From the NCBI GenBank assembly GCA_003164715.1, contig PLTZ01000020.1:1-62322 (forward strand): a DNA stretch of 62,322 nucleotides. Reading direction: 5' to 3'. Positions 30,971 through 33,013 of this stretch are shown here, piece by piece. The notes under the pieces are model-generated. The model did not search any database. It saw nothing but the letters and a program-made list of their open reading frames with translations, and had not been told where the DNA came from. Source of the stretch: Opitutaceae bacterium. GTDB taxonomy: Bacteria > Verrucomicrobiota > Verrucomicrobiia > Opitutales > Opitutaceae. Position 1 is the stretch's first letter. Every line of letters starts with the position of its first letter. Made by a program: the position numbers and the translations under genes.

Positions 30971-32563
30971 TCATACGGCGAGCTCGTACCAGCGCTTGGT
31001 CCTCACGCACGCCCGGCAGACCGAAAGCATCACGGGCACCTCGACAAGCACGCCCACGACGGTGGCGAGCGCGGCGCCGGAGGTCGGGCCGAAGAGCGTG
31101 AGCGCCACCGCGACCGCCAGCTCGAAGAAGTTGCTTGCGCCGATGAGGGCGCCCGGCGACGCCACGTTGTGCGGCACCCTGAACCGGCGCATCAGCAGGT
31201 AGACCAGGGCCGAATTGAAGTAGACCTGTATCACGATCGGCACCGAGATGAGAAGCACGACGGGCCATTTCCCGAGGATGTTCTCCGACTGGAACGCGAA
31301 GATGAGAACGAGGGTCGCGAGGAGCGCCAGGATGGTGACCGGCTTGAAGACGGGCAGGAAGGCCCCTTCGAACCACGGGCGTCCCCTCAGGCGAATGAGC
31401 GCGGTGCGGCTCAGCCATCCAGCCGCCAGCGGGATCACGATGAAGACGACGACCGACGTGAAGAGGACCTCGCGCGGCACGGTCACCCCGGCGACGCCCA
31501 CCAGGAACATCACGATCGGGGCGAACAGCACCAGCATGATGAGGTCGTTGATCGCCACCTGGGCCAGCGTGTAGGCCGAGTCGCCGTCCGTGAGGTAGCT
31601 CCAGACGAAGACCATCGCGGTGCAGGGCGCTGCGGCGAGGATGATGAGCCCGGCCGTGTAGCTTCGCGCGGCATCCTCCGGGATGAGGCCGAGGACCTGG
31701 CCGAAGAGCACCCGCAGGAACAGCCAGCCGAGGAACGCCATGCCGAACGGCTTAACGAGCCAGTTTACGAAGAGCGTGATCGCCAGGCCCTTCGGCCTTT
31801 GCATGACGCCCTTCAGCCCCCCGAAGTCGATCTTCAGCATCATCGGGTACACCATGAGCCAGATCAGCACGGCGATGGGTATGCTCACGTGGGAGGCGTG
31901 GCCGAACTCGAGCGAGCTCAGCCAGAGCGTCAGCGACGGGAACATACGCCCTGCCGCCACGCCCACGACCATGCACGCGAGCACCCAGGCGGAGAGATAG
32001 CGCTCAAAGAAGTCCAGGCGCTTCACCGGACCGGCGCGGCCTGATGCCTCGGCGGGAACAAAGGGGCCCGGAGGCGCGTCGCCCTCGATCCCGGCCTCGT
32101 TTCCAATGCCCTGGACCTGCAGCTCCCGCAGCCGCGCGTCCGGCAGGGCGCACAGAAGATCGATGCGCCGCGCGATCTGGGAGGCGACCTGGACAAAGGC
32201 CCATTTCCTCTCGGCCTCCGATCCCTGGGCCGTCGCGGGGTCCGGCGAGCCCCAGTGGGCGAGGATCGGGTGGCCGGGCCAAACGGGGCATGCCTCGCGC
32301 GCATTGTCGCAGACCGTGATGACGAAGTCGAAGGCGACCCCCTTGAACTCGTCCCATGACTTGCTGCGCGCATCGGGCGCGTCGAGGCCGTAGCGGTCCT
32401 TTAGGACCCATAGCGCAAGGGGATTGACGGTGCCGGTGGGCGCTGCGCCCGCGCTATAGGCCTCGAAGCGTCCGCGGCCCCTGTGCCGCAGCAGGCATTC
32501 GGCGATGATGCTCCGGGCGGAGTTGCCGGTGCAGAGAATCAGAACCTTGTAGGGAGGCGTCAC
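30971..32563 (-). CDS. Arsenate reductase ArsC fused to ACR3 arsenite efflux pump
   Basis: 530 residues from a GTG start (32563) whose GTGA overlaps the arsR stop. Residues 1-140 are a thioredoxin-coupled, LMW-phosphatase-type ArsC: P-loop C11-TGNSARS and the relay cysteines C85 and C92 (CDNAREAC). Residues 180-530 are ACR3, with about ten helices, the conserved Cys314 in AAPCTAMVFVW and Glu481 in GASNFFELAVA. A 40-residue Gly/Pro/Ala linker joins them. It should reduce arsenate and pump out the arsenite directly. ArsC placed before the pump in one chain is unusual; no frameshift is needed, as the frame is continuous. Confidence 0.93.
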   Translation of the reverse strand: MTPPYKVLILCTGNSARSIIAECLLRHRGRGRFEAYSAGAAPTGTVNPLALWVLKDRYGLDAPDARSKSWDEFKGVAFDFVITVCDNAREACPVWPGHPILAHWGSPDPATAQGSEAERKWAFVQVASQIARRIDLLCALPDARLRELQVQGIGNEAGIEGDAPPGPFVPAEASGRAGPVKRLDFFERYLSAWVLACMVVGVAAGRMFPSLTLWLSSLEFGHASHVSIPIAVLIWLMVYPMMLKIDFGGLKGVMQRPKGLAITLFVNWLVKPFGMAFLGWLFLRVLFGQVLGLIPEDAARSYTAGLIILAAAPCTAMVFVWSYLTDGDSAYTLAQVAINDLIMLVLFAPIVMFLVGVAGVTVPREVLFTSVVVFIVIPLAAGWLSRTALIRLRGRPWFEGAFLPVFKPVTILALLATLVLIFAFQSENILGKWPVVLLISVPIVIQVYFNSALVYLLMRRFRVPHNVASPGALIGASNFFELAVAVALTLFGPTSGAALATVVGVLVEVPVMLSVCRACVRTKRWYELAV

Positions 32564-32955
32564 GTGGAAAGGGCGCGTCGCGCCTTCAGCGCCGCAGGCG
32601 CGCAGCATATCGGGCCGCGTTGCGCAAGCCTGCGCGTCAGCGTGTTCAACCGGGCCGAGTCCGCCCGGAAGACCGGGTCCTCGCGGGCGCAGTCCTGCAG
32701 GCAGGCGAGGTTCGCCTTCAGCTCCCCCGAAGTGCGGGCGGGCAGGCTGTAGACCATCCAGTTGGCCTGCCTGCGCGCGACTGCAAGGCCGCGCGCCCGC
32801 AGGTAGGCGAGGTGCTTGGACACCTTCACCTGCGGCTCGCCCAGGATCTCCTGGAGGTGGCACACGCAGAGTGGACCCTCGCCAAGCAGGTTGAGGATGC
32901 GCAGTCGTGTCTGGTCGCAGAGGCACTGGTAGATCTGGACAAGTGTCATGTCCAT
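32560..32955 (-). CDS. arsR: ArsR-family metalloregulator
   Basis: 131 residues, winged helix. ALPHA3-type metal site CVCHLQEIL, recognition region QVKVSKHLAYLRARGLA. Further cysteines at the end (GPICCAP) may add to the As(III) site, a variable feature among ArsR types. It represses the arsenic genes until arsenite binds. A second in-frame ATG two codons downstream could be the real start; 4-base overlap with the fusion gene. Confidence 0.93.
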   Translation of the reverse strand: MDMTLVQIYQCLCDQTRLRILNLLGEGPLCVCHLQEILGEPQVKVSKHLAYLRARGLAVARRQANWMVYSLPARTSGELKANLACLQDCAREDPVFRADSARLNTLTRRLAQRGPICCAPAALKARRALST

Positions 32956-32957
32956 AC

Positions 32958-32982
32958 AGGTATATACCTAATTCGGCATATA
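32958..32982 (-). promoter_or_regulatory. Palindromic site before arsR, candidate ArsR operator
   Basis: Immediately upstream of the arsR ATG lies a perfect 12-base palindrome AGGTATATACCT (32958-32969), which is also the left half of a wider inverted repeat TATATACC-N6-GGCATATA (32961-32982, 7 of 8 arm bases paired). AT-rich palindromes near the start are usual ArsR-family operators. Its closeness to the start codon would leave a very short leader or favour the second ATG. Confidence 0.6.
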
Positions 32983-33013
32983 CAAGCGCAATCGCAGCAG
33001 CTCCGTCCCGCCC

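Follow-up and report, generated by a model that had tools for sequence, protein, structure and literature searches.

An open reading frame joining an ArsC arsenate reductase to an ACR3 arsenite pump, reductase first, in an Opitutaceae genome

The window, that is the whole 62,322-nucleotide stretch of Opitutaceae DNA analysed here (contig PLTZ01000020.1), encodes an ArsC arsenate reductase and an ACR3 arsenite efflux domain in one frame of 530 residues, which runs from 32563 to 30971 without an internal stop (Table 1). An initial annotation had described a single chain with the reductase first; this description holds, with domain matches at residues 7-110 and 183-516, respectively, and the strand, unstated there, is the minus strand. 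The stop of the upstream arsR gene and the start of the fused gene share one GTGA tetramer (32563-32560). Just before arsR lies a dyad reading GTATATGCC-GAATTA-GGTATATAC, which together with an overlapping palindrome (joint element 32958-32983) is a likely candidate for the ArsR operator. No match to the sigma-70 promoter consensus or to a terminator consensus was found at the ars operon. Downstream, the fused gene is followed by a convergent dienelactone-hydrolase gene. The genome to which the window belongs (G000; 3,788,902 bases in 92 contigs) gave 1 SBF-family match.

Table 1. Features of the ars locus, in coordinates of the window
Feature	Position	Strand	Details
Fused arsC-acr3 gene	30971..32563	-	GTG start 32563-32561; TGA stop ending at 30971; 530 codons plus stop
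ArsC domain, residues 1-140	32144..32563	-	C11, C85 and C92; CX5R loop C11-R17
Linker, residues 153-180, predicted disordered	32024..32107	-	pLDDT <50; contains the junction
GTGA	32023..32026	-	read as GTG (codon 180) in the fused frame and as the stop TGA in the +1 frame
ACR3 arsenite efflux domain, residues 181-530	30974..32023	-	TIGR00832; alignment; C314 and E481
arsR, 131 aa, CVC motif	32560..32955	-	TGA overlaps the GTG of the fused gene by 4 bases
Imperfect dyad, two 9-base arms	32960-32983	-	just before arsR
Perfect 12-base palindrome	32958-32969	-	overlaps the dyad

The catalytic and transport residues C11, C85, C92, C314 and E481 were found intact at the positions claimed for them. 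The CX5R loop with two further redox cysteines, the mark of thioredoxin-linked reductases of the LMWP fold, is present as C11-R17, C85 and C92; the ArsC domain may use thioredoxin. Residues 7-110 score 40.8 bits with the Pfam profile LMWPc (cut-off 23.2), while the pI258-type profile TIGR02691 gave the ArsC half 79.1 bits and fell short of its cut-off of 174.3. In a sequence search the closest solved structure was ArsC2 of Deinococcus indicus (8p5n, E 2.3e-26), to which this half is closer than to the pI258-type TIGR02691; Foldseek aligned the two with 43% identity and a TM-score of 0.94 by target. For the pump, TIGR00832 (ACR3) matched residues 183-516 with 366.1 bits (cut-off 282.8) over positions 1-324 of its 327. 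In its predicted fold the pump corresponds to bacterial bile-acid symporters, the fold class of its Pfam family, SBF. C314 and E481, presumably the conserved Cys and Glu of the ACR3 transport path, are invariant across 32 aligned sequences. The AlphaFold model of the fusion was built on a 32-row alignment, in which 13 rows come from other bacteria and read through a stop codon, and has a mean pLDDT of 87.8. Its residues 153-180 fall below 50 and are predicted to be disordered between two confident domains, in agreement with the flexible linker proposed earlier. With two conserved domains as its halves, the frame is hardly open by chance; the doubt centres on the correct sequencing of the 42-codon junction.

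The fused order is rare. Classification of 194 distinct ACR3 loci, selected by their similarity to the fusion, placed ArsC and ACR3 in one frame in only 2, both ArsC-first. A separate arsC lies upstream within 200 bases in 77 loci and downstream of acr3 in 27, and 88 have none within that distance, a part of these lying close to the end of a contig or stretch. Among the 77 upstream pairs, 50 share a frame with a stop between the genes and 27 do not share one, with a 4-base overlap in 19; same-frame pairs are over-represented because of the way in which the loci were picked. Such same-frame junctions with an intervening stop are widespread in other bacteria and are seen at L004, L005, L007, L012, L015, L017 and L019, and further ones at L021, L027, L028, L032, L034 and L053. 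The order itself is not exceptional: arsC before acr3 as separate genes is common, and only the missing stop is unusual.

In genome searches with the fusion as query, the window was the only full-length row without a stop among the matches listed for the family (252 genomes, 193 matching). The same order had been suggested as something to look for in other Verrucomicrobia, and among the matches listed for 387 genomes of the phylum (226 matching) no second full-length stop-free row was found. Likewise, no other such row was found among the matches listed in the groups of L035 (249 genomes, 170 matching), L003 (398, 313), L077 (246, 196), L024 (149, 120) and L037 (149, 121). Divergent fusions are missed by this survey, as was the second fused locus, in genome G065, which was found only by reading individual loci. 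Of 1130 matching plasmid records, 362 cover 80% of the query; in 23 of the best 30, ArsC and ACR3 are annotated as two features and 7 lack one or both names, and no fused feature appears by name in a further spread of 60 rows. Two candidates were rejected: Lucifera butyrica (G604) has separate frames with an arsR-like frame between them, and in G1510, of the L024 group, a query spanning the junction shows one TAA, with the stop-free G065 as positive control. Both had misled through an equal open-frame value for the two halves, which is no evidence of fusion. At G1560:C27:217202-218614, also in the L024 group, an ArsC match begins no more than about 20 bases after an ACR3 match; their open lengths differ, so that they are probably two genes.

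Four genomes of the same genus (G532, G533, G537 and G538) carry arsC and acr3 as adjacent, separate genes in different frames with 4-base overlaps (GTGA, TTGA, GTGA and ATGA, respectively). Their identity to the window halves is 73-83% for ArsC and 70-74% for ACR3, the ACR3 of G538 being truncated where its contig ends. Counted from the codons for ALPD (ArsC) to those for KRL (ACR3), the junction has 126 bases in the window and 104, 98, 107 and 107 bases in the four congeners, an excess of 19-28 bases. Modulo three these lengths leave 2 in all four congeners and 0 in the window, and it is this net +1 that merges the two frames. In the genome with the nearest ACR3 (G542, 86%) arsC is located further upstream; by eye, a transporter-like open frame lies just before acr3 there (L128, G542:C19:36500-40500). 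Since the congeners have two overlapping genes, the fusion is private to the window lineage as far as seen, and on these comparisons we read it as recent and as probably created by a frame-changing indel.

Our preferred reading, to which we assign a probability of roughly 50%, is that the locus encodes a one-chain ArsC-pump membrane protein under ArsR control, derived from a recent indel near a 4-base arsC/acr3 overlap. The indel would have brought both genes into one frame recently in the window lineage. ArsR would hold the operon repressed until arsenic enters, and a ribosome translating arsC would then continue into acr3. In the resulting protein a cytoplasmic ArsC domain, supplied with electrons by thioredoxin, would turn arsenate into arsenite next to the pump, and ACR3, attached through the loose linker, would export it. 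With the N-terminus of ACR3 proteins in the cytoplasm, an N-terminal ArsC would suit the presumed topology. Ten membrane helices are given for ACR3 proteins in the available text of PMC6205960. The reading is consistent with the single frame holding both domains and their key residues, the predicted disordered linker between confident domains, the ArsC and bile-acid symporter folds, the overlap with arsR and the 4-base overlaps of the congeners.

The main rival is a sequencing or assembly indel, in which case the true locus would be arsR-arsC-acr3 with a 4-base overlap and one wrong base at the junction. We regard this as a serious contender, though on balance doubtful. The congeners have two genes with the junction lengths described above, and local codon usage points the same way. 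With a log-odds table trained on seven other window frames, the fused frame is supported at codons 1-163 and 180-530, but at codons 164-179 the +1 frame is favoured by 12 bits (-3.4 vs -15.4), with a GC3 of 0.88 vs 0.62 in the fused frame. Beyond codon 54 the +1 frame stays open up to the GTGA at codon 180, which would give a normal overlap. Taken alone the latent GTGA is weak evidence, since other window frames contain 53 in-frame NTGA tetramers in 3065 codons and about 0.4 would be expected by chance in 25 codons. In combination, the +1 preference and the GTGA end suggest an indel near codon 163, recent or erroneous; a recent natural indel would leave an identical codon signature. Two features of the junction speak against an error of one base: it contains no run longer than CCCC, and its overall length exceeds that in the four congeners by 19-28 bases.

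The G000 assembly itself was examined for frameshifts by comparing 450 ORFs, taken from 40 stretches of the congener G533, with 1,416,243 of its bases (80 stretches plus the window). Of these ORFs, 171 matched; 60 were set aside because their identity was below 50%, and 33 because they were rich in arginine and histidine and likely out of frame. The remaining 78 genes, whose alignments span 37,667 residues or about 113 kb, gave no clear frameshift: 59 had at least 85% of their length covered in a single frame, 3 matched in several frames and 16 only in part, 9 of the latter at stretch ends and 7 elsewhere. An earlier run, with a smaller target and no identity or composition filter, had tested 62 genes and given 6 multi-frame cases; 5 of these and 1 new case were judged by eye to be antisense or out-of-frame extensions, and the sixth consists of overlapping matches to two copies. 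If the 7 other partial matches, which count against our reading, are not frameshifts, the frameshift rate of G000 is below about one in 38 kb, and an error falling within the roughly 120 bases of the junction is therefore unlikely a priori. A fusion is likewise unlikely a priori. The finding named at the outset as one that would undo the fusion, a sequencing error somewhere in codons 140-180, may apply here, and the codon usage at 164-179 points towards it.

The only other fused locus adds to the doubt. L138 (G065:C18, 271-1779, minus strand) is an ArsC-first open frame of 503 aa, in which the junction reads GAG-A7-TGAGC; the congener G118 (L089) has A6 and two genes. This one-A difference means that a single base can create a fused appearance, and from the sequences compared the G065 frame may reflect a slip, an error or phase variation.

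It is also conceivable, though unlikely, that the frame is truly fused while GTG codon 180 initiates a free ACR3 as well, beside the fusion or replacing it. The product would begin MKRLDFFERYL, close to where other ACR3 frames begin, and GTG180 is the sole ATG, GTG or TTG codon between 136 and 193. However, no clear Shine-Dalgarno sequence was seen by eye ahead of it, and since no stop ends arsC translation there, reinitiation would be unnecessary. The GTGA at 32023-32026 is possibly such an internal start, possibly a relic of the arsC/acr3 overlap, or a chance occurrence. That selection has shaped a bifunctional machine, with ArsC passing arsenite straight into the entrance of ACR3, is highly improbable: both parts are intact and a review argues, in its available text, that such fusions produce the substrate right at the transporter and favour its export (PMC12838822), but the linker is predicted to be disordered and within the genus the fusion is seen in the window genome alone, with no signs of long conservation. 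That a natural, expressed ArsC-ACR3 protein from a frame-merged overlapping pair, with its reductase on the N-terminal, cytoplasmic side, would raise arsenate tolerance over that of separate proteins, through arsenite supplied where the pump opens, is decidedly unlikely in our estimate. If the fusion is real, its close two-gene relatives make such a tethering effect testable against an almost matched unfused pair.

A search limited to open-licence papers, in the text available from them, found no ArsC-first ACR3 fusion; the fusion in the window is uncommon, and its parts and purpose are ordinary. Separate arsR-arsC-acr3 operons, including those of the same genus, have the same order and the same style of 4-base overlap but yield two polypeptides. 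According to the portions of the sources available, arsC precedes acr3 in all five main cluster forms of Burkholderiales (PMC3954881), and the verrucomicrobial Methylacidiphilum has an arsCR-acr3 cluster, described there with no mention of a fusion (PMC6688271). The same type of text describes ArsR-ArsC fusions in several genera, in which ArsC is likewise joined to an ars-operon neighbour but the partner is the repressor (PMC6205960). In AqpS-ArsC of Salinispora tropica an arsenate reductase is tethered to an arsenite exit route as in the window, but this route is an aquaglyceroporin instead of an ACR3 pump and, by the order of the name, the reductase is at the other end (PMC6205960, PMC12838822; excerpts). 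The mycobacterial fusion named in the initial annotation, with ArsC after the pump, is indeed written ACR3-ArsC in the text available from PMC6514093; it has 498 aa in M. tuberculosis (PMC6205960, PMC6514093) and, within the actinobacterial set of that study, is reported from Mycobacterium and Mycolicibacterium alone (PMC6514093). If real, the window fusion also shows how readily a single indel can turn a 4-base gene overlap into an actual or apparent fusion. It would then be the reversed-order counterpart of mycobacterial ACR3-ArsC, which, as excerpted, combines the same two activities in one chain but has the pump first and the reductase last.
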